Shown in pieces: positions 29,301-52,900 of a stretch of 64,000 nt of DNA (within the stretch, counting starts at the first letter, position 1; each line of letters opens with the position of its first letter). The stretch lies in the NCBI RefSeq assembly GCF_032854445.1, contig NC_088297.1, positions 4,651,991-4,715,990 of the forward strand, in the 5' to 3' direction. The notes under the pieces are model-generated. The model saw nothing but the letters and a program-made list of their open reading frames with translations, was not told the DNA's origin and searched no databases. Both the position numbers and the translations under genes were made by a program. The DNA comes from Liolophura sinensis. Lineage: Eukaryota; Mollusca; Polyplacophora; Chitonida; Chitonidae.

Positions 29301-32300
29301 CTAGGTCACTAGATCAGCAGGTCAGTGCTCTTGAGACACAGTAACCTTGATGTTTATAGTGACACGGAGACCATCTTGACACGGAACATTCGGACTGGTA
29401 AACCAAGAAATCTACTATCACCAGCTGAGCTTGGATTGCAGTCTTTACATGTAATTCAATGCTCACTGAACTTGTTGCTCTCCATTATTAAAGTTTCTAA
29501 CAAAATTTGATTAAATCCCGCCCATCTGTTCTTGAGAGAGACATGGCAGCTTGTATTAGATACTCAGTACTGTCAAAGTACATGATGAATGGATGAAAAG
29601 GCAACCAAAAGAGCCCGATCAAAGCATGAAGTTTCAAAGCAAAAGTGACTATTAAGAATTAGGGTTAATTAGATGTGTAGACATCATGTCATGCAGCCAA
29701 GGCCAGAGCATACACAAGTACATGTATATGGCAAGGCATTAAGCTAAGGACAAAGGCATTTAGACGTGCGAAAATGCTGTCAGTATATGACACGCTAGAT
29801 TGTCATTCTGTACTATGACAATGACATGTATTCTTTGTAACTGAGTGGTTACCTGCTGTGTGAGCTTATTAGACACAGTAGGTAACCACTTGACTGCGAT
29901 ATTAGACACAAACAGCTGTCAAAGTCTAGGCACATCTACACGTAGCCATGGCAATATGATGAGGGAGACATTAACGTGATTGTCAAGGTAATATTGTATT
30001 ATACTCAGGTCTCCATGAACAGTATGTACAGTACACATAAATAAATGTAACTTGGCATTTGCAAGTATGCACATGTCCTCATGCAGAAGGTTGAAGGTCA
30101 CTGACACCATATATTTGCGTATCCTGTCACCGAGTATTCGTGTAACAAATTCATCCTACAAAGATCCATCAATTCAGTGCAGAAAAACGATGTAAAGGTG
30201 AATCACTTCAGGGATGTGACCATGGTATTCGCAACCCAAAGGGAGATAACCTACTCAGCAGGCACATTTGACCTGTCTGCAAGATTTGAGAATATAAATC
30301 ATGTACTATAAATTACCCTAACAATTTTGCTGAAAAAAAATGCAATTTTTGTTTGAAATAAATGTTAGAAAATATAACTTTTGGTGCTGAAACTCACATT
30401 TTTATGGTAGGATACCACCTAACCTTCCATACACACTTCAAAAAAAAACCTTCTTCAAAAAAGATCAATGAGCTGGCAAAACCAGTTAAACTATGTAACT
30501 TTGTTATGCCATGGGTGAAGTTTTGGGTCTTCACTGTATGTCAAATAGTTTAGAATAGCTTTCTAAGATACATGACACAAGAATGCAGCAGTATTAAATA
30601 AAATCCCATGGTGTAGGTCAGCCTTGAAATTGTATATTTGAATGTGAAATCCCAAGACAATGTTACCATGAACAACAATCTGATATGACTCTGACAATGT
30701 TATCATGAACAACAATCTGACATGACTCTGACAATGTTATCATGAACAACAATCTGACATGACTCTGACAATGTTACCATGAACAACAATCTGACATGAC
30801 TCTGACAATGTTATCATGAACAACAATCTGACATGACTCTGACAATGTTACCATGAACAACAATCTGACATGACTCTGACAATGTTACCATGAACAACAA
30901 TCTGACATGACTCTGACAATGTTACCATGAACAACAATCTGACATGACTCTGACAATGTTATCATGAACAACAATCTGACATGACTCTGACAATGTTATC
31001 ATGAACAACAATCTGACATGACTCTGACAATGTTATCATGAACAACAATCTGACATGACTCTGACAATGCTATCATGAACAACAATCTGATATGACTCTA
31101 CATCACAGTTGTGGAGTTGGAGCTGGAACTGCTCTGTTCATGTTAGACATGTCAGAGTGACATCAACACCATACCATTACACCCAGGTCACCTTTGTCTT
31201 GATTTTTGAGCAGGTGTGAGATATCTTGCAGAAGACAAGGAGAATGATTTACACCCAGGTCGCCTTTGTCTTGGTTTTTGAGCAGGTGTGTGATATCGTG
31301 CAGAAGACAAGGAGTATGATTTACACCCAGGTCACCTTCGTCTTGATTTTTGAGCAGGTGTGAGATATCTTGCAGAAGACAAGGGGAATGATTTACACCC
31401 AGGTCGCCTTTGTCTTGGTTTTTGAGCATGTGTGAGATATCGTGCAGAAGACAAGGAGTATGATTTACACCCAGGTCGCCTTTGTCTTGATTTTTGAGCA
31501 GGTGTGTGATATCTTGCAGAAGACAAGGAGAATGATTTACACCCAGGTCGCCTTTGTCTTGATTTTTGAGCAGGTGTGAGATATCTTGCAGAAGACAAGG
31601 AGAATGATTTACACCCAGGTCGCCTTTGTCTTGATTTTTGAGCAGGTGTGAGATATCTTGCAGAAGACAAGGAGAATGATTTACACCCAGGTCGCCTTTG
31701 TCTTGATTTTTGAGCAGGTGTGAGATATCTTGCAGAAGACAAGGAGAATGATTTACACCCAGGTCGCCTTTGTCTTGATTTTTGAGCAGGTGTGTGATAT
31801 CTTGCAGAAGACAAGGAGAATGATTTACACCCAGGTCGCCTTTGTCTTGATTTTTGAGCAGGTGTGAGATATCGTGCAGAAGACAAGGAGAATGATTTAC
31901 ACCCAGGTCGCCTTTGTCTTGGTTTTTGAGCAGGTGTGTGATATCGTGCAGATAACAAGGAGAATGATTTACACCCAAGTCTTCATGTTCATGTACATTC
32001 ATAGTGCCCAGACTCTTCATGGCCTGGGAATGTGATAGTACACCTTAGATTAAAAGACTTGACATGCCTAACAATGCATCACCTGTACACTTTAAAATAT
32101 ACACAAATACACTGAACGTTTCACTTATAAATGGATTTTTTTACAGCATAATTTATTAACACAGCTATCCGCATTATTCTCACCGTTTAACAAGGTACAC
32201 GCTTTAGTTAGAAATGTCTTTCATGGGAAAGATGGACTGGATATTAATGGCTGCAGAAGAAGTGGTCTAATACCAATGTCAGGCCGTAAGTTGTCCTTCA

Positions 32301-33290
32301 TGAGAGAAATATGCATGGACTAGATCCATGCATGTATTTTCCCCATGAAATGTATTTTTCAGCCTGACCTGTGTGCATCAGACCACTTCTTTTGCAATCA
32401 GTATCCCTCATGTAGTGTGCACCTTAACTGACAGCTGTTTACAGGACAACACCACAGAGGATGTGACCTTAAGGTTACAATCTCCAAATATGGCAGACTG
32501 TTGTAGCATTCTGGAATAGTAATTTGATGGCACCTGCAGACGAATTTATTCAATGTCTATGTCGGGATGATATGTATAAAACATGCATATATTTGATGTA
32601 TTAATGACAGAGTGCGTTAGACAGCATCCAGTATATGAAATATAGCAAAATTAATTTGTGGCATTTGAAAGCCAAGCATTCAGCATCGTCAAACTGGTGT
32701 TATATAGCGCATGGCATTCTGAGCATTTTACTAATTTGATGCAAGGCCTGTGAGCAAAACTCTACCTCTCCCATAGTTATGTCCACTGTATTAACTTATA
32801 TAAAAGATCAATACACATAAATGATATGCTTATATACAGACAGGTCTACCTTATATAACACCAAATTCAATTATGACTTATGAAATGAGAAAAATTGGGT
32901 TTATAATAATAAGCAAATTGCAAAGAAAGTCTTCACTTCATACGCTTACCCGACATCACAGCAGTACGGGAAGGATTTCCCTCCAACTTTCCGAATGACA
33001 TCGTGCGTCCCTTCGTTGGTTTCTTTGTTGATGTCCCACAATACAACCGTGGCACCTAATTTTGCAAACTCCACTGCCAGTTCCCTGCCTATTCCACTTC
33101 CAGCACCAGTCACCAAAACTATCTCTTGTCTCACAGACTTACATTTCACTGGTAAAAATAGTCTCAAGAAAGCTAACACAAACACCACAGTCAAATCTCT
33201 CAAAGTTACCAATGCATCTATCAGAATCTTCTTGGCCGTGTCCTTTTCCTCGTGGATTATAGAACCAACAGAGCCGTTGGTGGCAGACAT
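23267..33290 (-). CDS. short-chain dehydrogenase/reductase, SDR16C / RDH10-like
   Basis: Predicted 324-residue membrane-anchored oxidoreductase that probably oxidises retinol or another lipophilic alcohol with NAD. Five exons join in phase with GT-AG ends. Features in order: N-terminal membrane segment ([16 protein letters not shown], about 33-48); cofactor loop TGAGSGIG (61-68); acidic Asp86 after the second strand (LWDIN), which favours NAD over NADP; NNAG (138-141); catalytic Ser near 191-192; YSSSK with Tyr204 and Lys208. The tail FVGRKTKNK is typical of the RDHE2/RDH10 group. Length fits the family (about 300-340). The start is the ATG giving MSATNG, with A at -3. Introns are large and repeat-rich. 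Relatives such as 17-beta-HSD11/13 share most motifs, so the exact substrate is not settled. Confidence 0.93.
23535..24150 (-). repeat. cluster of three SINE copies
   Basis: Copies at 23535-23722, 23790-23935 (central part only) and 23946-24150 all lie in minus orientation, each with CCAGCATTA.GG.GGGTGGAAACC or GGGAGGAAACC and CCCACGACCATCCGCAGGTT. They fill most of dehydrogenase intron 4. None retains a full tRNA head. Confidence 0.88.
24230..24355 (-). CDS. dehydrogenase exon 4
   Basis: 126 bases, phases 2 in and 2 out: CCATTTACCAG acceptor, [10 protein letters not shown], then [25 protein letters not shown] donor. This is the C-terminal helix and membrane-associated part of the SDR fold. 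Confidence 0.9.
24939..25905. repeat. 39-base minisatellite, about 25 units, in dehydrogenase intron 3
   Basis: The unit is GGTACAGATATGCCAACC then ATATTGGTGGAAGACAAGTGT. Variants at three sites (CCAACC/CCAGCC, ATAGG/ATTGG, GGA/GAA) recur in the order atagg, gaa, ccagcc, ccagcc, giving a 156-base higher-order unit repeated about three times. A one-base deletion lies near 25822. Since 39 is a multiple of 3 and the unit lacks stops in most frames, long ORFs appear on both strands. I regard them as non-coding because they lie in an intron and all frames are open alike. Confidence 0.93.
26118..26192. repeat. 17-base tandem repeat, four units
   Basis: Units of CAGGTAACCGTTGCGA type, with small changes. 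Confidence 0.85.
26813..27057 (-). CDS. dehydrogenase exon 3 (catalytic Ser, Tyr, Lys)
   Basis: 245 bases from a TTTGTATTTCCAG acceptor to a GTAAGT donor, phases 0 and 2. Contains [26 protein letters not shown] and [15 protein letters not shown]. Confidence 0.93.
27333..27582 (-). repeat. near full-length SINE
   Basis: Runs from TATTTATTTATTTCATTGAT through ATTTCGCTTATACGATGG to the head side (GGCTTGAACTCACAGCC, GCGTGCTAACCCC). It retains a B-box-like TTCAAGCCC in minus orientation. It lies in dehydrogenase intron 2. Confidence 0.85.
28409..28574 (-). CDS. dehydrogenase exon 2
   Basis: 166 bases, phases 2 and 0: TGTGTTTCAG acceptor, [24 protein letters not shown], ending AQFW before GTAGGT. 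The acceptor side is the end unit of the tandem array at 28570-29000. Confidence 0.92.
28570..29000 (-). repeat. degenerate tandem array of about 54 bases that includes a splice acceptor
   Basis: About eight units of the form GATCTCTGAAACACAAG, AGTGAACAATGAATGA, CAATCAAAGCAC, TTTGCTT. The first unit on the plus strand overlaps the boundary of dehydrogenase exon 2: on the minus strand it supplies TTGTGTTTCAG|AGATC. Several other units keep a TTTCAGAGATCAAG-like sequence, i.e. decoy acceptors. Confidence 0.8.
29001..30650. other. intron sequence, no feature recognised
   Basis: Part of dehydrogenase intron 1. Short ORFs only. An inverted pair TTACCTGCTGTGT / ACACAGTAGGTAA lies near 29850-29886. 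Confidence 0.5.
30657..31100. repeat. 37-base tandem repeat, 12 units
   Basis: The unit is ACAATGTTACCATGAACAAC then AATCTGACATGACTCTG; the main variation is TTACC/TTATC. It lies in dehydrogenase intron 1. Confidence 0.95.
31179..31979 (-). repeat. 72-base tandem repeat, 11 units, with a long ORF
   Basis: The 72-base unit encodes on the minus strand a 24-residue repeat with [15 protein letters not shown] and HLLKNQDK. An ATG-started frame of 285 codons spans 31163-32020 and a second minus frame is also open. It lies in intron 1 of the dehydrogenase on the same strand. Two open frames and a lack of splice or family support argue for a non-coding minisatellite, but expression cannot be excluded. 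Confidence 0.9.
32252..32396. repeat. near-complete hairpin element, 145 bases
   Basis: Outer arms TGCAGAAGAAGTGGTCT and AGACCACTTCTTTTGCA are inverted with one mismatch. Inside, GTCAGGC pairs with GCCTGAC-like sequence, TTCATGAG with CCCATGAA, and TGCATGGA with TCCATGCA around a CTAGA loop. The whole element could fold on itself. It lies in dehydrogenase intron 1. Confidence 0.75.
32950..33290 (-). CDS. dehydrogenase exon 1 (membrane anchor and cofactor loop)
   Basis: 341 coding bases from ATG to a GTAAGC donor, phase 2. Encodes the N-terminal anchor, [18 protein letters not shown] and [12 protein letters not shown], ending CCDVG. A few upstream in-frame codons contain no other ATG. Confidence 0.93.
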
Positions 33291-33299
33291 CGTGAAGTA

Positions 33300-36200
33300 A
33301 AACCGGGGCAAACTGACTGACAATATCAGTCACAAAAGTTGACTGACGATATATGGACCCCGGGTGATCCGCGTTTAGTTACTTAAGCAAAGTTGTTGAC
33401 ATCACTCATCTGCAGGCATTCTTGACTATCTCCTGTCCCCGATTACCACTACTCCTACAAAACTTGGTCTCCAATTAACACACAAGAGGACTAGATCCTA
33501 TTTAATACGTGGCACTTGCTACAAAGTCATGTATGACAAGAAATTTCACCTCGCAATGTGCAGCATGATACCTCACTGACAGCGAATCGTCATCGTGAAT
33601 CAAAAACATCCGATTTTACTAATCACCTTTGCTGGATTTTCATTGTACAGCGACGCTTGCTGACATCATTTGACGAAGCCACGCTGTGCTAGTGCCAGCC
33701 AGGGACAGAACAATCCTCTAATTAGACCAGGCATTGTGTGCGCAAAGACGGTATTTGATTTCAATCAATTATCAAACTAATCTTCTTTTGACGCACGCAC
33801 TCGCCAAGCGTTCAACAAGTGTCACCTTGACCTCTGACCTACACTGTAGAGTAAAACGCTGAAACACATTTGGTATAGTTCCAACACCCTGTAACAAATT
33901 GACATTACATGTTTCGAGATTTCAGGCTATTTTACTGCAAAAACACGTGCCTTATTACAATTTATATTAAATTGCTTAATTTTGCTGCAAATGTAATCAG
34001 GTAAACACTTCGGTAAAAAAGAAAAAAAAAATTTTTTTTTAAAAGGGCATTTTAATGTCACATTTAGCACTAACTCCACATGTGAAGCTGGCACCGTGAC
34101 CTGATTTAACACTTTTCAGTACTATTGTACCGAGCAGGTATAAGTTAGTACATCGTCAATCAGGTGAACCACTCATACACGTGCGGCTATAATTTCGCCC
34201 CAGCTCCAGTACATGTATTTTTCGCTTCACAAATTACAAAAATCTCGTATCTTCACAAATATGTACGTGTAACACGTTGGTTATCATGATTCATGTGAAT
34301 AAGTACACCCCGGTGCACTAGTTAACAGACTTATGGTATCAGAAAATATAATTTGCTTTATATGTTATGCAACATCGAATTCGACAGTATATGGGTTTTA
34401 TACCCTCGATGTGTGTATACACTGAAACACAGTCAAACAAATAAACAGTACATAGCATGTTTCAGCAACTCCTAACTGTAGCAATGTTTCAAAAGAAAAA
34501 AAAGACACAATTAAGCTAATCAGATATATGGACATTTTTTTAGTAGTTGAGCAAGGGGAAATGTTCCCGAGCTAGCGAACAATTAATTGTCGTACGCTCT
34601 GCCAGTATCAGGAAAGAGACTTTATATAATCCCGAATCCAAATGTTCCGCGCGCATCCACATTATACATGATCGAATGATCGGCTTAAGGTGTTTTAGCA
34701 CGTTTCATGTACTCGATGACACCTGGGACTAATATAGGCCCCTATAACGACTCATACATCTGATTTGTTAGCCCCAGCAATATTCGCTTTCACGTATCCG
34801 ATGTGGCAACATTTAATTGTGATTATCATTATCCTTTTTAAATTAAATTGGGTCTCTCCGCGAAAGTACTTATTTATAAATGAGCAAATTGATTGCTGCT
34901 ATATATAACTACAGAGGATTTGAGTTTTCATAACTGTGACTACCCCGTTCATTGATTCCTGCTGTTCTTACGACTTCCGGTACATTATATATCAGCACTT
35001 TTAATAAATGTGAGTATAACTGTGAGTTGTAACCTTTCCAAATAATAGTCAATTAATATATCAATATATCAGTTTGAAGCATGTACGGTAAAGTACAAAT
35101 TTCAGCGAATAAAAGGGAAAGACAGTGATGCAACTTACTATGCGTGAGTGGGGTTATGGGAATGAGGTTGAATTGCCCGTATGCTCGTTCTCTTTTTCCG
35201 GTCGCATCATGCCCGAGAAGTATGTTCCGCTGTACATCTTGTAAAATATCAACAAACATCTCCATCCCTCTGTTACCGATCAAATTAGTTGAAATTACTA
35301 TTAATCGTTATATGCCTTTTTAACGCCTAAACATGGTTTTAAGCTATAACTGGGACTTACAATTATTAATAAGCTCCTAAAAGACAGGTCACTTGTGTGT
35401 CTTGCTCCCAGTGAAGTCGAAATACACGTTGTCACAGGTGTGATGGCGTGATTGTCTGTTATCTGAACATTTCTACCGACTGTTGTTGGTGAAGATTAGA
35501 AACAGCATTCTTGTCAGTCATCTTCATAAAATCTAAACTGAGTTTGATTGAGTAGAAGCCACATCGAAGTAATTTTAAATGCCGTTATGCCGTGTGCAAC
35601 AACAACACTGAGGACAACATCACAATTATTTATTGACATTCGTGGTGGGGTAATTTATAGGCGCCGGTGGAGCTTGAATTAAATGCGTGGCAGACATCAC
35701 AAATGGGTGTCAAACGAAATTTGTGAATATAAGGCATACTTCATGATAAAATGATCTCCGCAACAACAACGACATGCATGCGTCGTCCGGTTTTGTGTTC
35801 CACAATTCATGCAAACTATCCGAGAAAGAAAAAAGAAACGAAATCATGGTTTAGGCTTAGTGCCTTCTATCTCTGGCACAAAATGTCAAAATGTCGGATT
35901 ATCATAGTCACAGTGGCAACAAAGGTAGATCATAGTCCATTTCACTCTAGCCTTACATACAGTACAGCTTATGCTAAAAGTCCACACCATACAAGGAGAT
36001 TAGCGCAATCCTAGAAATCTTTTAGAGTTTGTAGCGCCCCTGTAGGGGGTGTATGGGAAGGGAGTTTGGTATAAAATATCTGCTATGAGGTTGTATTTCA
36101 CAGGCCTCGTCGTTTGAAAATCCCAGGAGTGCTATTTTCAGTCCTCCTTATTTCAGCAAGGAGTGTGAAAAGCTCTCCTGGAAATAGTCCTCCTAAATTA

Positions 36201-36685
36201 CTTTAGGAGAGCTATTTCATAAAATATACAAAAACTGAAAATCTATATAAACATGGCTGCCATAGTTTTGGTAAGTTAAATGGCTTTGACCTGGACTATT
36301 TTACTGAGGGCCTGCATGGTCATGGGTGGATAACAGGTGTCTTAATGAGGGTAAATTCAATACCAGAAGACAGCACAAGTCAGAAGTGTCATTGTCAGAA
36401 GTGTCATTGAATGCTGTGAAAAAAAATAATAATAATAAAAAAAATAACAGCATATAATTCCAAAAGATATGAGAAGTCATCATTGTTGCCCAATAAAGAT
36501 GTAATTAGCTGCTGAAAGCATGTGTAGACGGAAAACACTGGCCCCATGAGGTTTGATATATCCAAGTTCTACTGTAACTTAATATTATGGTATGGAATCC
36601 GGTCTCAGACTGCAATTTTAGATTTTGATTTTGGTGCAGTTTTATAATTCTTATTTTAAGTAAACTCGACCAAATACATGGACAA
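33300..36685. other. intergenic, no gene recognised
   Basis: Upstream side of the dehydrogenase gene. ORFs are short and featureless. A block at 36000-36230 carries two copies of GGAGAGCTATTTC-like inverted words around CCTCCT. No core promoter can be assigned by eye. Confidence 0.45.
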
Positions 36686-36689
36686 TAAG

Positions 36690-37151
36690 TCAGCATTTTA
36701 ATTTTGAAACAGCAAAAGTTTCATCTCCGAGGCGTTTCTGACCAGTCTTCAGTGCCTGACCTAAAGCAGTCTCAGCCAACTTTTCAAGTTCGACACCCAT
36801 ATGATGCACTTTAGATTCAAGGTGCCGCATGACGGTGTGTTTTGTAATAAAGCTGGTTCCCGTTGTATACTTCATGAAGTCAGCGACAGCTCTTCCACGG
36901 AGCTTGGGTACCAACTGCGCCTCGTGAGCAGCGCAGGTTTTGCACCACACCTCAGTCACTTGCGTCAGTCCATCCTCGCTACTCGTTTTGTAGCCTATCA
37001 CATTTCCTGTTGGCCATGCAAGGAAGGTTTTTAGCTTCACGGAAGACATCCTGTTGAAGACTAGAGCGTGAACGTTCTGTACGGTGCACTTAACCAGTAC
37101 ACATGCCGTTCCCTTTCGCCTTGCAGAGGCAACGATTGTCACCTTCAACAC
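36690..37151 (-). CDS. zinc-finger-like ORF, possible exon or transposase-derived fragment
   Basis: 153 residues, not assigned to a known gene. Residues about 71-110 read VWCKTCAAHE (C-x2-C), then a spaced HTVMRHLESKVHH (H-x4-5-H), the layout of BED/TTF-type fingers found in hAT transposases and host proteins derived from them. FNRMSSVKLKTFLAWP precedes it. The ORF is open from ATG to TGA without obvious introns. Composition is more coding-like than its surroundings. It could be the first exon of a larger gene running to lower coordinates or a remnant. Confidence 0.4.
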   Translation of the reverse strand: MLKVTIVASARRKGTACVLVKCTVQNVHALVFNRMSSVKLKTFLAWPTGNVIGYKTSSEDGLTQVTEVWCKTCAAHEAQLVPKLRGRAVADFMKYTTGTSFITKHTVMRHLESKVHHMGVELEKLAETALGQALKTGQKRLGDETFAVSKLKC

Positions 37152-37682
37152 AGAAGAGTTTGCCTAAAGTTACCTCCCCTGTCACGGCGGCTGGCGTGCG
37201 ATTTATAGAGCTCCCCAAAATGAGTTTAGGTGCGCGTAGGAGCGCGAGCGCGATCGCGCTCCTTATATTTCAAGGCCTGATTTCAAAATTATTACTCCGA
37301 CATTTGATACAAATCAATGATTTTGATCGTATATTTACTCCCATAAATTGCTTAATGAAGTTGTTGAGCTGATTTTGTTTTGCTTAGGTAGGTTACATAT
37401 TGCAAAAATAAACTTCCTGCCTTTCGCGGCTATATGTTCTCATAGCTGAATACACGGGGACTACACCTTTAACAATAATCCTATTCGCCTCACCAGGTGT
37501 GTGACAGCTCAGTAGAGGGTTTGTCACACGTCAAAGCTTTATTCATTATCTTAGAAAGCGATACGAGCGGTAAATTGACTTTTTGCCTGAGCTGTACTGT
37601 GGCTCTGTCTTTGCTTACACTCTGGTAGAGCCGTACAACATTCTATTTAATTTTCTGGGAGTAGTGCTAGAGTTCTACTGCC

Positions 37683-38005
37683 CAACAGTAATGTGCCAAA
37701 GGTGGGTGGTTTAGACGGGGCACTCAGGTTTGCTCAGACTTGCATACTTGTAAGATTTTGTGGCTGAGGTGGTTAGCATACCAACACAGCACAATGATCC
37801 AGGAGCCTCTCACCAATGCAGTCGCTGTGAGTCCAGCTCATGCTGGCTTCCTCTCTGGCCTTACGTGGGAAGGTCGCCCAGCAACGTGTGGATGGCTGTG
37901 GGTTTCCCCCCAGGCTCTGCCCGTTTTCCTCCCACCAAATGCTGTTGGAACGGTGTAAAACACCAATTCATTATGTAGATCAGATTTGCTACAGACAAAA
38001 TGTGG
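37683..38005 (+). mobile_element. tRNA-headed SINE copy, 5' of RPL7 exon 2
   Basis: Nearly the same as 40469-40791, sharing also the 5' flank GTGCC.AAGGTGGGTGGTTTA. A box TGGCTGAGGTGGTTAGC, weak B box GAGTCCAGCTC, then the conserved body. The end reads AAACACCAATTCATTATGTAGA, not the usual (AAAT)n tail. It lies within RPL7 intron 1. Confidence 0.88.
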
Positions 38006-38051
38006 TTGACGTCAGTCATGGTCCTTATGTTGGATATCATTGGGATTTCAG

Positions 38052-38151
38052 ACAAAAGGTGCCGCAGGTTCCGGAAACCCTCTTGAAAAAGAGGAAGAAG
38101 TTTGAGGAGTTGAGGGCCAAGAGGGCCAAGGCTGTCCTCCAGGAGAGAAGG
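38052..38151 (+). CDS. RPL7: RPL7 coding exon 2
   Basis: GGGATTTCAG acceptor, then one base plus [20 protein letters not shown] and AVLQERR, GTAAGC donor at phase 0. Confidence 0.93.
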
Positions 38152-41100
38152 GTAAGCTTAATGATAAAAGTACAGTTGATATTCCGGTTTCATCTGGTCC
38201 TGCTTTATGTAACCTTCACTCTGATATTCATGTCGCTACACTACAGTGGTGTCATGCTTGTAGGTTTCTTCCACATGTAGAGTCTGTTATGGCTAAATTT
38301 AGGCTCCTGCACCATGGGAAGTGGGAATTTGTTCCAGAAATGTTCACAGAGATGACATGGTTTTACCTTTGTCATGTACATCTGTAGCCATACAAGCATA
38401 TATTGTTCCGGGGGCCTCCGTGGCTCAGTTGGTTAGCGCACTAGCGCAGTGTAATGACCCGGGAGTCTCTCACCAATGCTGTCGCTGTGAGTTCAAGTCC
38501 AGCTTATGCTGGCTTCCTCTCCGGCCGTATGTGGAAAGATCTTTCAGCAACCTGTGGATGGTCGTGGGTTTCCCCCCGGGCTCTGCCCGTTTTCCACCCA
38601 CCATAATGCTGGCCGCCGTCGTATAAGTGAAATATTCTTGAGTACGGCGTAAAACACCAATTAAATAAATAAATATATTGTTCTGAGATACTCATGGATG
38701 TAAAAAAGGAAAATTAGCATAGAAGCATTTCAGGTTTACACTTCAAATGACACGTGTCAACAATTCCAGCTCAAAATAATCATTTCTAGTACAATAATAC
38801 ACCTTTATTTGAAAGGGGCAGGATGTTCATGTGACGAGACTAATGTGTACAGGTGCATAAAAGATTTTTGGACTAGTAAAAAAAGAAAAGAATGAACATT
38901 TACATACAATACAAATGCAATATTTTTTCAGCCATGGTTAGAAAATGTTTTCTTGTTTGCTCAACCACTTATCTCACTTTTGTACATTGAATTTTCTCCC
39001 GTTTTCAGAAAGCTCGAGAAAAGAGGAAGGTTATCTTCAAACGCGCTGAGCAGTACGTGAAGGAGTATAGGGTCAAGGAGAGGGATGCCATCAGGCTCGC
39101 TCGCCAGGCCAGAAAACATGACAACTTCTACGTGCCAGCCGAACCCAAAATTGCCTTTGTGGTCCGAATCCGAGGGTAAGTGCAAAAGTAGGATTGTAGT
39201 GAGAAATTAAAAAAGGTGCCTCTTCCCACATCTTCGTTATTTTTAGCTCGCCTGTATGTAGTATGTCGGCGTTGACGAGCAATAATAGAGAAAGCAATGT
39301 TAAACAAAATGTTAGGGGTGGTATCTTAAAAAGTACTACAGGCTTTGAGCTCAGAGTTTGCACACATGGAGAGCACAGTATCACTAGGGAGATATTCCAG
39401 TGTTGAGTGGATGCGTGCATAAGAAGTACCGTAAATTACTGAATCCAGACAAAGTGTGTTGTGTATAAGAATCGATGTTAAACAGAGTGCTAAGGGTGGG
39501 ACTCTGAAGATTAAGGGTGACTACCCAGTACCTTTGCAAATGTTGAGTGTCATGTCAGATATGTGTTTAACTGCAGAGCTCTTGATGTACAAAGCTGTGT
39601 GAGAATTTAGCGCTCTCTGAATCTCTATTTGCAAACTTACCGGCAGATGAAGATGTCAAACTGCGACACATTTGCCACATTTCTTGGGGGTAATTTGAAA
39701 TACATTGTCAACTTCTGCCCATATTTCGTAAGCATAATTACTTTATTTACAGATTGGTTTTGTTTACACGTACGTACAAGTCTGCAAATTACGATCACAG
39801 GGCTCATTTCCACTTGTCTATCCATCAGTGGAAATCACATGATTTTTGCGGACAAAAGGCAAAACAATAACCTTACCTGTCACTGACGACATGTAAATCA
39901 CGTGTGGGCAAATTTGCATACCGGTTGTCATAAGTCATGCACTTTATTTTGATATACTGTACAACCTGTGACCCAATGTAAGTGTTGTGCGAACTCCAAC
40001 AACTCTGACAAATCCTGTCTCCCAATAATGCCGATAAGGGGTAAAAGTAAATTATGGCAGTTTTCGGAAACCTTGCTTGAAGTATGTTTTCTGTGTATAA
40101 TGGGAGGTTCCTGATATAATAACACGGGGAAAAGGAACTCTTTTGCAATTAAGAGGAAAGTTGAAACAAAAAGCACATATAGACTCACTAAACATCTTCT
40201 GTCATTTTGCTGCCAACTCAGATCATGCAAAAGACGACAGTAACTCATGTGTGAAACTCAAGGTAACTTACTGTATTTGTGCAGTCGATGATGTACGCAT
40301 CAATTCTGTAAGTAACCGAACGACTGGCGGAGTGGTTTTAAAAAAAAAAAAAAAAAAAATGCTTGCTATCATCTACAACAGTTGAGTGGAAAATTTTGGG
40401 TGTAATATTGAGTGAGAGGTGTGTAATTATAAAGGGGGATTTGAATACTTGAACAAACTAACTTAACTAACTAATGTGCCTAAGGTGGGTGGTTTAGATG
40501 GGGCACTCGGGTTTGCTCAGACTTGCATACTTGTAAGATTTTGTGGCTGAGGTGGTTAGCATACCAACACAGCACAATGATCCAGGAGCCTCTCACCAAT
40601 GCGCTGGCTGTGAGTTCAAGTCCAGCTCATGCTGGCATCCTCTCTGGCGGTACGTGGGAAGGTCTGTCAGCAATGTGTGGATGGCTGTGGGTTTCCCCTG
40701 GGCTCTGCCCGTTTTCCTCCCACCAAAATGCTGTTGAAACAGTGTAAAACAACAATCCAATATATAAATCAAATTTGCTGCAGACAACATGTGTAATTAT
40801 AAAGTGAGATTTGAATACTTGAAGAAACTAACTTACCACTTGCCAATCTGATTGTATTTTCAGTATAAATGGTGTTCATCCAAAGCCGCGAAAGGTGATG
40901 CAGCTGTTCCGCTTGAGACAAATTAACAATGGAGTGTTCATCAAACTGAACAAGGCCACTCTGCACATGTTGAGGATAGCCCAGCCCTACATCACATGGG
41001 GGTAAGACAGTACGGCTTACGTAGTAGTTAAATCTTCAGGGTCCCTTACTGTTCCACTTGAGACAAATTAACAATGGAGTGTTCATCAAACTGAACAAGG

Positions 41101-44049
41101 CCACTCTGCACATGTTGAGGATAGCCCAGCCCTATATCACATGGGGGTAAGACAGTACGGCATACGTAGTGGTTAAATCTTCAGGGTTCCTTACTGTTCC
41201 GCTTGAGACAAATTAACAATGAAGTGTTCATCAAACTGAACAAGGCCACTCTGCACATGTTGAGGATAGCCCAGCCCTATATCACATGGGGGTAAGACAG
41301 TACGGCATACGTAGTAGTTAAATCTTCATGGTCCCTTACTGTTCCACTTGAGACAAATTAACAATGAAGTGTTCATCAAACTGAACAAGGCCACTCTGCA
41401 CATGTTGAGGATAGCCCAGCCCTACATCACATGGGGGTAAGACAGTACAGCATACATAGTAGTTAAATCTTCATTGTCCCTTACTGTTCCGCTTGAGACA
41501 AATTAACAATGGAGTGTTCATCAAACTGAACAAGGCCACTCTGCACATGTTGAGGATAGCCCAGCCCTACATCACATGGGGGTAAGACAGTACGGCATAC
41601 GTAGTGGTTAAATCTTCAGGGTTCCTTACTGTTCCGCTTGAGACAAATTAACAATGAAGTGTTCATCAAACTGAACAAGGCCACTCTGCACATGTTGAGG
41701 ATAGCCCAGCCCTACATCACATGGGGGTAAGACAGTACAGCTTACGTAGCAGTTAAATCTTCAGGGTCCCTTACTGTTCCACTTGAGACAAATTAACAAT
41801 GGAGTGTTCATCAAACTGAACAAGGCCACTCTGCACATGTTGAGGATAGCCCAGCCCTACATCACATGGGGGTAAGACAGTACAGCTTACGTAGCAGTTA
41901 AATCTTCATTGTCCCTTACTGTTCCACTTGAGACAAATTAACAATGGAGTGTTCATCAAACTGAACAAGGCCACTCTGCACATGTTGAGGATAGCCCAGC
42001 CCTACATCACATGGGGGTAAGACAGTATGGCATACATAGTAGTTAAATCTTCAGGGTCCCTTACTGTTCCGCTTGAGACAAATTAACGATGGAGTGTTCA
42101 TCAAACTGAACAAGGCCACTCTGCACATGTTGAGGATAGCCCAGCCCTACATCACATGGGGGTAAGACAGTACAGCGTACGTAGTAGTTAAATCTTCATG
42201 GTCCCTTATTGTTTCGCTTGAGACAAATTAACAATGGAGTGTTCATCAAACTGAACAAGGCCACTCTGCACATGTTGAGGATAGCCCAGCCCTACATCAC
42301 ATGGGGGTAAGACAGTACAGCTTACGTAGCAGTTAAATCTTCAGGGTCCCTTTCTGGCTTAGTGGTGTACAGTGTTCCTCAAAAAAGATAACAAAGAGCA
42401 ATGGCCAGCCCAGCCCTACATCACATGGGGGAAAGACAGTATGGTTTACGTAGCAGTTAAATCTCCAGGGTCCCTTACTGGCTCAGTGGTATACAGTGTT
42501 CGGAGCTCTGTCTGGTTTCCTTCCACCATAATGTATAAGTGGAGTATTCTTCAATACGGCGTAAAACACAATTCCAACAACTAAATTAAATCAGGAGGTT
42601 TGACGGTACCTTGGCAGGAAGTACATGTATTAAATCTCCTTGGCCTAAATCCCCATGGCCTAAATTTCCATGGCCTAAATCTCCATGGCGGAGTGTTCTC
42701 TCAGGAGTCTCTCACCATTGCCTCTGCGGTTGTGCATGAGGCCTGGCATCAACCTGCAGATGCTCATGGGTTTTCCTGGGAACCCGCCTGGTTTCCTCCC
42801 ACCACAACACTGGCCACCATCTTGTAAGTGAAATATTCAAGAGTATGGCATAAAACACCAATCAAATCAGTAAAGTGGTATGTACTTCAGTTTATGTAAT
42901 CTGTAGAAGTCTGTCAGCAACCTGCGGATGGTCGTGGGTTTCCCGCGGGTTGTGCCTGGTTTCCACCCACCATAATGCTGGCCGCCGCCTTATAAGTGAA
43001 AAATTCTTAAGTACGACGTAAAACGCCAAAAAAAACATAGTTGTATCATGAGGTTTTATCCTTTGATTCTTCTTGTCAAAAAGACCTTTGTTTCCATACT
43101 ATTGTTGAGCAATTTTGGTGTGATGTGTGTGGTTTTATTGTCATTGTTTGTGGAAAGAACAGGATATAAATATGGGTCAGTCCATCTGTTCATCTGTCAT
43201 GCTTTCATTTCAAGGCAAAAACTTTCCCAAATATTGTCCAATTTTGATAAAATGTTGTGATCATCCTCAATTCGAAATTTTTGTTGAACTTAGATCAAGT
43301 TTGAAAACGGCTGCACATGTAGTGTTTGGATATAAGTTTTCTAAATTTTGTTGTTTGTTTTATTCTCAGAGAGCCCACACTAAAGAGCATCCGGGAGTTG
43401 ATCTACAAGCGAGGCTACGGCAAAGTGGACAAAAGGCGAATCCCTCTCACAGACAACGCCATCATTGAAAAAAATCTAGGTTAGTCATTGTTTGCTTCAC
43501 ACGGCATTTTTCTCAAAATCACAGATCCTGCAAACGGTGGTTACTATTAATTATAAACGTATTTTGTATTTTCAAAAAGTGACCTGGAACGGAAAATTGA
43601 CAAAATATTCCATTGATATGTCTGAACTTTTGCACAAATATGTACAGATTTAAAATTTTTGTCGTCAGTAATTAACAAACAAGTTTTATTTTTGGCTACA
43701 AAAATGTACATGAGTGAGGATAATGAGAAATCTTCCCTTAGACATTGTCCAGATTGCGCCATACCGATCTTGGTCCATCATGCAATATAGCTTTTCGTAG
43801 TTTGCCAGTGCTTTACCACTGAGTGATCTCCCCTTTCCAGGGCAATACGGGATTATCTGTATGGAGGATTTGATTCACGAGATCATCACGTGCGGAGAAA
43901 ACTTCAAACAGGTGACCAACTTCCTGTGGCCATTCAAACTGAACACGCCGAACGGCGGCTGGAGGCGAAAATACAACCATTTCAACGACGGCGGTGACTT
44001 CGGGGCAAGGGGAGAGAAAATTAACACGCTCCTTAAAAGAATGATTTAA
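38052..44049 (+). CDS. RPL7: ribosomal protein L7 (uL30), large subunit
   Basis: Structural protein of the 60S ribosomal subunit. Five coding exons join in phase and give 241 residues that follow eukaryotic RPL7 closely: [103 protein letters not shown] and the C-terminal INTLLKRMI. The acceptor at 38052 needs two bases from an upstream exon, so the ATG lies on a tiny first exon I could not place. Human RPL7 is 248 residues, so only a few residues are missing. The intron after the third coding exon contains nine tandem copies of that exon's 3' part. Confidence 0.95.
38409..38672 (+). mobile_element. full-length tRNA-headed SINE with 11-base TSD
   Basis: 264 bases. Head CCTCCGTGGCTCAGTTGG (A box) and GAGTTCAAGTCC (B box), body GGTCGTGGGTTTCCCCCCGG, tail GTGAAATATTCTTGAGTACG, GCGTAAAACACCAATT and AAATAAATAAAT. 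The direct repeat ATATATTGTTC lies at 38398-38408 and 38673-38683. This is the best copy in the window for defining the family. It lies in RPL7 intron 2. Confidence 0.94.
39009..39175 (+). CDS. RPL7: RPL7 coding exon 3
   Basis: CGTTTTCAG acceptor, phase 0; [20 protein letters not shown] to AFVVRIRG; donor GTAAGT at phase 2. Confidence 0.95.
39180..40465. other. RPL7 intron 3 sequence, no feature recognised
   Basis: Short ORFs on both strands, an A run at 40340-40359. I looked for box C/D snoRNA motifs, common in ribosomal protein introns, and found no convincing C and D pair. Confidence 0.5.
40469..40791 (+). mobile_element. second copy of the 37683 SINE variant
   Basis: Almost identical to 37683-38005 over its whole length, with B-box TGAGTTCAAGTCC intact. 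The two copies sit 2.8 kb apart in the same orientation, both inside RPL7 introns. Confidence 0.9.
40864..41001 (+). CDS. RPL7: RPL7 coding exon 4 (source of the tandem array)
   Basis: TTGTATTTTCAG acceptor, 138 bases, phases 2 and 2; [19 protein letters not shown], then [26 protein letters not shown], donor GTAAGA. Reading past the donor gives an immediate in-frame TAA. Confidence 0.95.
41002..42345 (+). repeat. tandem array of partial RPL7 exons, 145-base period, nine extra copies
   Basis: The landmark GAGACAAATTAAC recurs at 41060, 41205, 41350, 41495, 41640, 41785, 41930, 42075 and 42220, exactly 145 apart, after the original at 40915. Each unit has the last 90-odd bases of exon 4, the GTAAGACAGTA donor and about 45 intron bases ending CTTCAGGGTCCCTTACTGTT. 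Exon parts are almost unchanged; the main coding differences are CGC/CAC (Arg/His) and GGA/GAA (Gly/Glu). The intron-exon AG (CTTCAG) is kept before five copies and changed to CTTCAT before four. The true acceptor and the first 45 or so bases of the exon are not duplicated. Confidence 0.96.
42346..42500 (+). repeat. degenerate end units of the RPL7 array
   Basis: CCCAGCCCTACATCACATGG then GGAAAGACAGTATGG: the donor GTAAG is changed to GAAAG and the exon part is broken. A final half unit ends near 42497. Confidence 0.8.
42478..43034 (+). repeat. three SINE fragments in RPL7 intron 4
   Basis: Copies at 42478-42592, 42688-42869 and 42903-43034, all plus orientation, each with CCACCATAATG- or CCACCACAACAC-like and AAGTG.A.TATTC..GAGTA landmarks. 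Between the first two, TCC.TGGCCTAAAT is repeated four times (42640-42690). Confidence 0.82.
43370..43479 (+). CDS. RPL7: RPL7 coding exon 5
   Basis: TTTATTCTCAG acceptor; completes Gly, then [20 protein letters not shown] and [15 protein letters not shown]; donor GTTAGT at phase 1. Confidence 0.95.
43841..44049 (+). CDS. RPL7: RPL7 coding exon 6 (C terminus)
   Basis: TCCCCTTTCCAG acceptor; [19 protein letters not shown] to [10 protein letters not shown] and TAA. Confidence 0.95.
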
Positions 44050-44119
44050 AAGAAATGCTTCGGTATGGACTACCCCTGGCGACAGACTTGTAAAATTGCA
44101 AAGGGAGATAACTCTTCGA

Positions 44120-44141
44120 TTGACCGAATCTGTTTTCGGTC
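44120..44141 (+). other. stem-loop in RPL7 3' UTR
   Basis: TGACCGAA and TTCGGTCA, an 8-base perfect stem with a 6-base loop, just before the ATTAAA. Confidence 0.55.
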
Positions 44142-44144
44142 ACT

Positions 44145-44150
44145 ATTAAA
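44145..44150 (+). terminator. RPL7 poly(A) signal
   Basis: ATTAAA about 95 bases after the stop codon, followed by a T/G-rich stretch (GGTCTCTTTGAGTGTTGTTT). Confidence 0.6.
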
Positions 44151-44159
44151 GATTCCATC

Positions 44160-45480
44160 TGAAGACGATTACTGGTCTCTTTGAGTGTTGTTTTTACATG
44201 ATAATCAAGTCTGCAAAAGTAGACTGTTCAAAATACAGGTTAGTCGATACGAATGTTGAAGGTTTGGAATTTGGAATTCAGTACGTAGTCTTGATAGTTT
44301 TTTTTCCGTCGTGAATAACGTGAGTTCACTCCTGGCTTTCGGTAGGGAATTCGATTTTTATGAAATGCCCACTTTTTCACTCTTGGTAGAACCTGGGCGA
44401 CAATAAACTGTTGACGTCGTTAGCGAGTCCGTTTGTGTAGGCTAATGTTCATTGAAGACAACTAACTGGTCTTCCACCTGTACTGTACGCGAGGTTGGAA
44501 AATCAGTAACTTGTCAAAGGTCCGTTTTTCTCCATCTAAAAAACTTCCCATCTTGTGAAAAATTTTTGAGTACGACAATAAGCAGGTACATGTATAGTTG
44601 TTAATTAACTTTGTGGTCAAGTGAACATTTGTGAAGTCAGACGCCAAGCATATGCCTGAGCACAGTTTATTACTGCATGTAGAAGGCTAACCACACAATA
44701 CATGATACAATACAAACGACCTGGGGCAGATTCCATAAAACATTTTTTATCAAAATTTAAATTATGATTGTAAGCATTATTGTTCTGCTTTAGAAGTTAA
44801 AATTTTGTGCACTAAATCAAGATTATTGTCAGACCAAAAACTGAGGAATACAAAGAGGTTTTTCTTGAGTCTTATATATTCGGCAAGTCTGATCAAACGA
44901 ACGTGGCTTAAGACCCAAATGGACTCCGGTGACGTTGAAATCTCTTTCACACGTGGGAAAGTTCGTCGGAAACTTGCCACACGTCCGTGGTTTAACCCAG
45001 GCACTCCGGTTCCTTCCATAAAGCTTACAGCTATCATGTATATGGGGAAAATCTTTTACTGATGAGGGTAAGCAATTAGCAAGCGACCAATCAATTGCCG
45101 AATTTTGTCCAAGATATTAGACACCGGTTACTGACAATATACGGTATTGTTTAAGTGTAGTAATGCTGGTTACGTCGTGATATACAAATTGGGGAAAGAA
45201 AAAAATCACAACGCAGTCTAGAGCTTATATACGGGGACGGATATACAATTGTCATGTATAGTGTGATAGAGCTGGTTTAGGACGGTATACTCCTGAATTC
45301 CTGTTTAACTCTGCATGTGATATCGTATGTTTGCATCATTAACATATAGCAATGTCCTCTGCATGTGATATCGTATGTTTGCATCATTAACATATAGCAA
45401 TGTCTCTAGATTTTCTCCTGTTTAAACTTTGACCTTATTGGCACATCAGCATATCACTGTACTCTGAAGACAATGGGATG
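44160..45480. other. intergenic; one old repeat and one 46-base duplication
   Basis: 44890-45020 (CGTGGGAAAGTTCGTCGGAAAC, GTTTAACCCAGGCACTCCGG) looks like a dispersed repeat; 17440-17520 has weak similarity. 45311-45402 holds two tandem copies of a 46-base unit starting CTCTGCATGTGATATCG. No gene is recognised. Confidence 0.55.
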
Positions 45481-45486
45481 TCTTGT

Positions 45487-45658
45487 TTTTTATTTATTTG
45501 ATTGGAGTTTTACTCTGTACTCAAGAATATTTCACTTACACGACGACGGCCAGAATTATTGTTGTGGGGGGGGGGGGAGGGGAGCAGGCAGAGCCCGGGG
45601 AAAACCCACGACCATACGCAAGTTGTTGCCAGATCTTCCCACGTACGGCCGGAGATAC
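45487..45658 (-). repeat. SINE copy, head lost
   Basis: TTGATTGGAGTTTTACTCTG, TACTCAAGAATATTTCACTT, then a G run at 45565-45575 replacing the usual GGGAGGAAACC, and AAAACCCACGACCATACGC. Confidence 0.85.
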
Positions 45659-45659
45659 A

Positions 45660-46375
45660 CATGGTTATATATATGTACACACAGTAAAAAATACTGTAAA
45701 AAATGATACGACACAAAATGCACATTAAAGTTGTTCCCGTGCAAGCAGAAGCCACAAATCTCCAAAAAGTCTTGATGGGAGTTAAACTGCAGCCGCGTAA
45801 AAATTTGCTGCGGTGAAAAAAAAATCGTAAAAATGTATTCAGTGTTCAACAAGCCCTGGTATCTTAACGGTGTTTGGGCTCCTCCCAAGTGTGTACGCCC
45901 AGCGATTTTTAGAATACATTTTTTTCTTGTCATCATAGCAATTTAAATGTACACATACATTATTTTAGTAGCAATCTTGCGGTAATAATCCAAGATTTAC
46001 CAACAATGAAGTAAATATCTTTCAGCATATGTTGAAATCCTCTTTGATGGCAACGGACTGTGAGGACATAAACAGTTTATTGGTAATGTCTTTGCGTGGA
46101 CATTTAAGGGTATCTTTTGCCGGTTCAAACCAGTAGGCCTACTAACCATTACTGTCTTCCAATGAATGCGTAGTAGACTAGGCTCCGTTGTCAGTATACC
46201 CACCAAACGTTACCGCAAAATTAAGGAAGGAGTTGAGAGTTGCTTCGGTCGTGAAAGAGTTACCCATTTCATATATATTTATATACACCGCATGTATTAG
46301 CGCGTCAAGATAGCCACATGATCATTCAACTGACCGTGTTCTCTGTATGCCCCGTTTGTCATGTATGCATTCGGT
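45660..46375. other. no gene recognised
   Basis: Short ORFs only; nothing I can name. Confidence 0.5.
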
Positions 46376-49900: not shown

Positions 49901-52900
49901 TATTTCACGAATACGACAGCGGCCACCATTATGGTAGGAGGAATCCAAATAGAGCCGGACAAACCGCTTTGGCTCCAGAGAGACTGTTGTTTACATAATA
50001 ACATTTGTACATCCTTCCCGTAACCTGTAAGATTTCTTTTTTGTAGTTTTATACGTGTTTTTGTACTTGTCTTCCTTCTGTATGTAATGTTATTACCTGT
50101 TTGACTTTAACTCTGACGTAATTCTCAGTCCCTGGGGTAAGTTTGAGGACGTCAGAGTTTCCCGGGGAGAATTTCTCGTGGGGCTCGTGTAGGAAAATCT
50201 ATTTAACAAACAGAAATGTATTAATGGATGGACATCAGGACGAATTGCGCATTTATTTATTTGATTGTTATTTACGTCATACTACAAGAATATTTCTCTT
50301 ATGTGACGGCGGCCATCATGATGGTGGAAGGAACCAGGCAGAGCCCGGGGAAAACCCAGGACCTCCTGGGTCATTGCGCCGCGCTGTCGTGCTAAACCCC
50401 TCGGTCACGGAGACCCCCCTTTATATTCAAGAAAATATAAATATATTCGTAAATTTTGAAATCTTCGGTAATATTCTCTTCTCAGATTTTGAATGATATT
50501 CAGGGTTTATCGCCTGAGAGGAATTTTAACAGTTTTTAGCATATGAAATATTTAAATGTGTTCCTGCCATTTTCTTTATTTATTTGCAAATAGACACTCA
50601 CCTGTACTCCTGTCTTAACTGTGTCTTGTACATTAATTGTGAGAGTGAGTCCTCCGTCCATGCCCGGAGCCAGGGATTCTAATACGGGCAATATTTGTTC
50701 ATTCTCGTTCCCCGGTGACGAATTATTCAAAGTTTGTGTATTTTTTTTATCATCTACGAAACCATTAACTGTATAGCACAAACGAGGTTGTAATTCTTCG
50801 GAGACGAATTTCCTGACGTAATTGGAACAATTCGTGCTGGCAAAGACACATTGCTGTATGAGTTCTGTCTGAAGAAGTTGTTGAGTCTTTTCAAAAATCC
50901 CCTTCAGGTTAAGCTTGTTAACCTCCTCTTGCGATACCACTGGAAAGAGGGTTTTGTTTAAGATCTGGCTGCTTGTGAGCAACGTGTTTCCCGGCTCACT
51001 GCTTTTGAGCGCATTGGCTCTCAAATCACTACTTTCGAGCGCATTGGTTCCCAAATCAGCAAGTGCCTCGAGCGTCATGTTGATGGCGTCAGGTAAATGA
51101 CTGCAAACCGTGACACCAGGGAACGGCATCCTGTCCATATAACGGTTTGTGACTTTTGTTAATATAGGACGACTATGAATATATCGTATGTGGCTCTCAA
51201 CAATTATGACGAAACCCGTTAGCTGGGCCAAGACCACCACTACCCAGAACAATCTGTCAGATAATAAAAAAAGGAAAAAAAAACAAACTTTATTTAAAGG
51301 TAAACAAAACACTAACGTGAAATATATGTCAGATGAAAGCCCATTAAAAACTATCCACAAAAAATTGGTTTTATTTTTTTTAGAATTTTTTCAACCCAGA
51401 AAAAATGCACTTGGAATTTTGGATTCCATAAATACCTTTTCTGACAATATTGGGACCAGTGACGTCATATCCGGTTTTTTGGCACTTAGCACATGTACAT
51501 CACTTGGTTTCATACTTTTAATTGCATATACATGTAGATCTATGAATGCAATCGCCAAATGGGCCTTGAAACCAACCATTTCAATATGGATGTGACCTCA
51601 TTGGTACTTTCTGGATCACAACAGATCACCGCACAGAATCTGATGTTTTAAAACCATTCTACTCGGTTGGAAACATTTTCCCCAAAAAAATCGAATTATT
51701 GGGATGGACAGTGTTTATTGGTCTTTCACCTGATATACACTTTATTCTAGTGTTTTCTTTGCCTTTAATTGAATGGTGTTCACTGCCGAGGTGATGAATT
51801 TTTAAGCTGGATTCAAACACGTGACCTCAGTGGTCAAGGGCCCGTAGACCGCCTGAGCCATCATCCCCTCCCCCTTCCTCCTCCCCTCCCCCAAACAAAA
51901 TCGGAGTTTCATTTCGTATTTCTTTACACTGCAACAGTATAGTTTGCCCTTTACAATAGCAAACCAGTTATATGGTGCCAAATGACAATTAAGCTTGTTG
52001 AACTAAACGCGGTACGTACCTTTAAAAGCGACGTGATTGATCCCCAAATTAAAGGTAAAGTGAACATCATTTAAAAAATGTATTTGAAGTGCCTGCACTT
52101 TTTCAGATTTTTTTTCTCTCTGATTTAAAGGTATGGATTGTTAGATTTTTATTGTGGTTGGCTTCGTGAACCATATATCAACAATACACATGTATATCGC
52201 CAATGACGTCACGCCACTTTTCTACGGCTCTGGAACAGATTATAGAGGTTAAGGCACACTGAAGGTTGAATGCCATAAATATTGTTCGAGTGAGACGTGG
52301 AAATGATAACCCACGAGACGCAAAGACATTTTCTCTACATGTATATAAATGCGTATCACTTTATCTGTTGCATCCTTGAAAAAAATAAGCAATGTGCTAT
52401 CTTCGTCGTATTTCTGATTCTATTCATACGCGCTGCAATTTTGTTCACAAACCTTTTTACAGTTTTAAACGTTATCTGTAAGTAATTATACATCTACAAA
52501 GGTGTTTCATGCTATGCAATATAGGTATTTACGTAAATAAAGCACATGAAGGATCTCTATCTGATGTTTTGGCGAACTATATATGTGCGGAAGTGCACGG
52601 CCTTGTGATGCGGTCCACGAAGACTTCAAGATCTCCGGCAGTGTAATAGCAAAATGTGATAACAAAAGTGATATCTAACAAATGAAAATATCATTTTTAT
52701 TAGTGAAGGAAATACTGGGATTTCACTGATGTATAAATGATAAAACCCAATATCGCACATAAGTCCACCTTGCAATCTACACACTAAACTGCATTACATT
52801 CAGTGAAAAAAAATCTAAGAAAATAAGTTGTTTTCAGATTCAGTTCTGGTGGTATGCATTTTATTTCATTTTTATACATGTTTTCATCCCTTAACGTCAT

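Follow-up and report, generated by a model that had tools for sequence, protein, structure and literature searches.

The window analysed here, a stretch of 64,000 nucleotides (C3:4651991-4715990, in an assembly of 609,464,459 bases in 632 contigs), contains a gene for the ribosomal protein RPL7 in which the end of one exon is repeated head to tail together with its splice donor. RPL7 is essential and highly expressed. Ten identical donors, each preceded by about 98 near-identical exon bases, compete at this locus for one true acceptor, which raises the question of whether the extra donors serve the gene or are ignored by splicing.

The gene lies on the plus strand and encodes RPL7 (uL30): its best PDB match (E = 6.8e-108) is to RPL7 proteins of solved ribosomes, and the product matches Pfam families PF08079 and PF00327, both above the cut-off. 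Five exons, from 38052-38151 to 43841-44049, splice into a frame that is open from exon 2 to the stop codon. These are exon 2, the first coding exon found (38052-38151, placed by its boundaries and by protein matches), exon 3 (39009-39175), exon 4 in its true copy (40864-41001, 138 nt), exon 5 (43370-43479, whose start is where a preliminary description of the locus had put it) and exon 6, which includes the stop codon (43841-44049). The numbering adopts the count of that description, with an inferred first exon added; a short-pattern search for exon 1 settled no match. The acceptor of the true exon 4, TTTTCAG, ends at 40863 and its donor, GTAAGA, begins at 41002. Introns 3 and 4 are 1,688 and 2,368 nt long. 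Searches of the 609-Mb assembly with exon 4 DNA, PF00327 and PF08079 reported no second RPL7 locus, array or retrocopy, with the proviso that a missing match in an assembly profile search does not prove absence. Exon 4 DNA gave 11 matches, namely the true exon, nine array units and one degenerate copy. PF08079 gave two matches, both within RPL7 and one of them under the cut-off, and PF00327 gave one, the true exon; the latter search caught none of the nine array units and is therefore insensitive.

The array begins at 40904, the 41st base of exon 4. Tandem Repeats Finder reports it at 40904-42356 with a period of 145, 10.0 copies, 95% match and a score of 2633; ten full units, the first of which includes the 3' part of the true exon, occupy 40904-42353, and the nine extra units start at 41049. 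Such head-to-tail, near-identical units are those of a minisatellite. Each unit consists of 98 exon-side and 47 intron-side bases, the latter being the donor GTAAGA and 41 further bases. GTAAGA is present in all ten units in perfect 145-bp register, so that nine extra donors (41147-42312) start at 41147, 41292, 41437, 41582, 41727, 41872, 42017, 42162 and 42307. The preliminary description of exon 4 followed by nine 145-base units, each with 90-odd exon bases and an unchanged donor, is thus borne out; its placement of the array end at 42500 is not, as the full units end at 42353 and are followed by a degenerate copy at 42407-42501. At the unit junctions, the intron sequence ...CCCTTACTG is joined to the exon sequence CTGTTCC..., and CTG is common to both sites. 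No inverted repeat of at least 20 nt was found in 40300-43700, and Rfam gave no match at gathering score in 36000-46000.

The intron side of the unit ends in TTCAG in six of the ten units and in TTCAT in the other four. The six acceptor-like ends, AAATCTTCAG, lie within 41030-42344, with AG ends at 41039, 41184, 41619, 41764, 42054 and 42344, and by their letters could act as candidate acceptors; donor and acceptor candidates that can be paired thus exist within the array. The earlier statement that the acceptor was not copied holds only for the true TTTTCAG. Their pyrimidine content is 9/17, against 8/17 for the exon 2 acceptor and 11-13/17 for the other four RPL7 acceptors. Since they are no worse than the exon 2 acceptor in this respect, pseudo-exons may be used.

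The degenerate copy (42407-42501) differs from unit 9 and its flank by 8 mismatches in 95 bases, lacks most of the exon and no longer has a donor, owing to a single base change (GTAAGA to GAAAGA, GT to GA at 42431). Around its junction, AGTGTTC is common to the intron site and the exon site, and the junction holds a 29-base filler for which the window offers one 11-base match elsewhere and nothing longer. Because the shared sites are distinct, CTG for the units and AGTGTTC for the degenerate copy, two separate tandem duplications are likely, one for the array and one for the degenerate copy. Their order is only inferred, given the junction filler and a divergence of the degenerate copy that is not far above that between full units. 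A dispersed-repeat fragment at 42500-42590 adjoins the degenerate copy and has at least 41 matches in the genome, itself included; among the best 40 of 459 candidates, no match other than the fragment itself begins before query position 46 (window 42500). The idea that the intron beside the array is a tRNA-like SINE head was rejected, as the genome matches start only from about 42500 on. A 46-bp stretch of intron 3 is also duplicated (40420-40465 and 40790-40835, 93%), flanking a dispersed repeat of about 320 bp that sits just upstream of the exon 4 acceptor. Upstream of RPL7 exon 2, at 37689-37998, this repeat has a 90% copy, found among the best 40 of 5,795 candidates.

Tandem arrays are common in this genome. 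In a sample of 20 stretches of 10 kb, taken at fixed positions on ten contigs (200 kb in total), we counted 18 arrays with a period of at least 30 and at least 5 copies, distributed over 9 of the 20 stretches, and the 64-kb window holds seven distinct arrays including that of RPL7, which is therefore one of many. Its unit is long for the genome, because none of the 18 sampled arrays combines a period of at least 100 with at least 5 copies. As a control we took six loci of 5-6 kb from other ribosomal-protein families, some of these loci being possible mitochondrial forms, and considered their Pfam-matched exons; four further Pfam places (C8:8100262, C1:23561206, C1:23559471 and C6:15209713) were left out. 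Exon DNA was compared within each locus because Pfam searches with the six other families were insensitive. A nearby second copy was found for none of the 12 Pfam-matched exons at the six loci and for one of five exons in the RPL7 positive control. Two of the six loci have an array nearby; these arrays are non-coding by translation, with stops in all six frames of the three units read. Arrays near ribosomal-protein genes are thus ordinary; what is unusual is that an array has captured the end of an exon.

The units themselves vary. Across all ten, 16 of the 145 columns are variable, no two units are identical (pairwise differences 2-10 of 145), and likeness shows no steady fall over distance, with lag means of 4.9-7.0 differences. 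The near identity of the units had been taken to favour recent spread or gene conversion. The array is not brand new, as the intron parts differ between units by a mean of 8.6%. All four combinations occur in 22 of the 45 informative column pairs, a sign of exchange between units or of recurrent mutation. The 9-base donor window is invariant, at a level expected by chance for random columns (P = 0.34); for the whole invariant stretch of 22 columns that surrounds the donor, P = 0.061 (between copies of the array). Variable columns are fewer in the exonic part (6/98) than in the intronic part (10/47; Fisher p = 0.010), and the longest invariant run spans 57 columns (29-85; p = 0.005), both of these tests having been picked after the data were seen. 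Six of the 16 variable columns are in CpG positions; when CpG columns are dropped, the contrast becomes 4/94 versus 6/41 (p = 0.067) and the invariant run has p = 0.056. Half of the six exonic variants alter an amino acid, from R to H in four units, G to E in three and N to D in one. The true exon 4 carries none of these changes. The pattern fits homogenisation of the units in which only the unit joined to the true acceptor is exposed to selection, and it does not need any function of the array copies.

Our preferred reading, to which we give a probability of about 0.8, is a near-neutral minisatellite that happened to be seeded where exon 4 meets intron 4 in the one RPL7 gene found and is ignored by splicing. 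A tandem duplication would have started the array, after which the units would have multiplied and swapped sequence; the degenerate copy would stem from another, perhaps earlier, duplication with the shared AGTGTTC at its bounds. The spliceosome would define exon 4 across the exon, pairing the true acceptor with the nearest donor to give the 138-nt exon; the nine farther identical donors would be passed over, and the array would leave as ordinary intron, nearly neutral in its effect. A small leak to later donors would yield nonsense mRNA.

Use of the first donor is expected because long introns lie on both sides of exon 4, the situation in which exons are defined across the exon. In the available text of the study by Carranza et al. 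2022 (PMC9225289), five minigenes were tested in human cells, each with a pair of identical strong donors and flanking introns of 365 nt; all five used the upstream donor exclusively. The human rule given there for such introns is a preference, among donors of near-equal strength, for the one that lies closest across the exon. The same text reports that before strength matching the downstream donors were favoured in about 60% of events in human data, and that weak identical donors gave exon skipping in larger constructs (PMC9225289). We infer first-donor choice and removal of the array from this rule, which comes from human data and applies to donors of near-equal strength.

Besides the long flanking introns and the negative Rfam and inverted-repeat searches, several observations speak for a near-neutral array: (i) the abundance of such arrays in the genome, (ii) the chance-level invariance of the donor, (iii) the amino-acid changes in the copies and (iv) the loss of the donor in the degenerate copy, the last being weak evidence as most of the exon is absent there and the change is a single base. 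The neutral expansion offered as an alternative in the preliminary description is supported. Against neutrality stand the lower exonic variation, which may come from exchange with the selected exon and counts against full neutrality, the 22 invariant columns, the intact donors in all nine extra full units, and the control loci, where none of the 12 exons compared had a nearby copy, so that exon capture is not commonplace.

A possible though doubtful alternative is that the array acts as a sequence reservoir. Through unequal crossing-over and gene conversion, the true exon 4 would trade its 3' part with array units, and selection on whichever unit adjoins the acceptor would indirectly keep the exonic part clean. 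The lower exonic diversity (0.020 versus 0.086 in the intronic part) is consistent with this, as are the four-combination pairs, which exchange would give, and the true exon's having the consensus base in each of the six variable exonic columns. However, the CpG-free contrast is marginal, the copies carry three amino-acid changes, and the chance that a unit lacks all six variants is about 0.25 by arithmetic on the variant counts. A reservoir is compatible with a near-neutral array rather than exclusive of it, and the odds of the two overlap.

We modelled 20 splice products, with a placeholder for the first two codons and with no more than one pseudo-exon per product. The normal product is full length, and skipping of exon 4 preserves the frame. 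All 18 modelled products that use array sites carry premature stops, as the isoforms of unproductive splicing do. The true donor gives the 138-nt exon and the nine later donors give exons of 283 to 1,443 nt, all of which stop at codon 138 of 243, since an in-frame TAA overlaps the first donor (GGG TAA); the longer exons are thus nonsense, as had been proposed. Five products with a pseudo-exon in place of exon 4 stop at codon 98 of 243, and four with a pseudo-exon added after exon 4 stop at codon 144 of 243.

These early stops, the single RPL7 locus found and the unproductive splicing of five ribosomal-protein genes in a Drosophila set (PMC2689934, whose available text does not name RPL7) speak for a dosage switch, in which a regulated share of transcripts would use later donors or pseudo-exons and be removed by nonsense-mediated decay, capping RPL7 output. 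We nevertheless regard such a switch as improbable. In this phase a donor G|GTAAGA invariably gives GGG TAA, so the nonsense outcome requires no special design. The invariance of the donor is at chance level, the copies carry three amino-acid changes, the donor is lost in the degenerate copy, exon definition favours the first donor given the long flanking introns (PMC9225289, available text), and the open-licence literature searched contained no report of this kind for RPL7. The splicing or dosage switch, or donor sink, put forward in the preliminary description is therefore without positive support in a genome where arrays abound. A copy-number-variable "donor ladder", in which donors 2-10 or pseudo-exons would lead to decay, array length would tune RPL7 between individuals and exchange would renew the exon end, is likewise a long shot. 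False expansion of a smaller repeat during assembly is scarcely credible, since the ten units are all distinct, the array is only 1.45 kb long, and the ten sampled contigs, at 19-96 Mb, suggest a long-read assembly.

Studies of intron gain in Drosophila (PMC2891723, PMC2809761) reportedly concern tandem duplication or decay. The nearest precedent found for the RPL7 array is the potato RdRp gene (Ma et al. 2016, PMC4974935), in which, according to the available text, one exon/intron boundary was likewise duplicated in tandem with its splice signals and the copies carry point changes. That case involves one duplication on the acceptor side and a new intron backed by RNA reads (PMC4974935), whereas the RPL7 array has nine extra copies on the donor side and leaves the true acceptor uncopied. 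The introduction of the same paper also describes Rogers' AGGT model, as well as fission yeast genes that contain multiple 24-bp duplicates (PMC4974935). The minigenes of Carranza et al. resemble the RPL7 locus in having several identical donors, one acceptor and introns beyond the short-intron class, but they were built with two donors, whereas the natural gene has ten (PMC9225289, available text). In the polyubiquitin gene UBC (Duan et al. 2024, PMC10809524), tandem gene units also each contain a splice site; as far as the available text goes, those units are whole in-frame coding monomers with dual-specific sites, donor or acceptor, whereas an RPL7 unit combines part of an exon with intron sequence and disrupts the frame. 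With the unproductive splicing and decay of ribosomal-protein transcripts, the likeness is that the alternative choice would give premature stops; that system is regulated, whereas the stops of the RPL7 array are predicted (PMC2689934, available text). No closer precedent for a donor-side ten-unit array in a ribosomal-protein gene was found in the open-licence literature searched.

The ten donors differ mainly in their distance from the acceptor, with exons of 138, 283 and so on up to 1,443 nt, and would thus provide a natural test of the distance rule of exon definition. If the array is silent, it shows how a genome rich in tandem repeats tolerates repeats seeded on exons, and it would offer raw material for new introns.

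Elsewhere in the window, a 72-bp array of 11.2 units at 31177-31981 contains on the minus strand an open frame of 293 amino acids with a 24-residue repeat; seven Pfam families match this frame as a whole, no single stretch passes, and the matches look like repeat artefacts. A 39-bp array of 24.9 units (24938-25906, 96%) has several open frames on both strands, one of which, on the minus strand, gave no match against Pfam. An open frame of 335 amino acids at 53816-54820 contains Tc3-type and DDE_3 transposase domains. On the minus strand, two stretches at 2573-3334 and 50539-51390 match the amiloride-sensitive sodium channel family (PF00858), and a short-chain dehydrogenase match (PF00106) lies upstream of RPL7 on the opposite, minus strand at 32949-33329.
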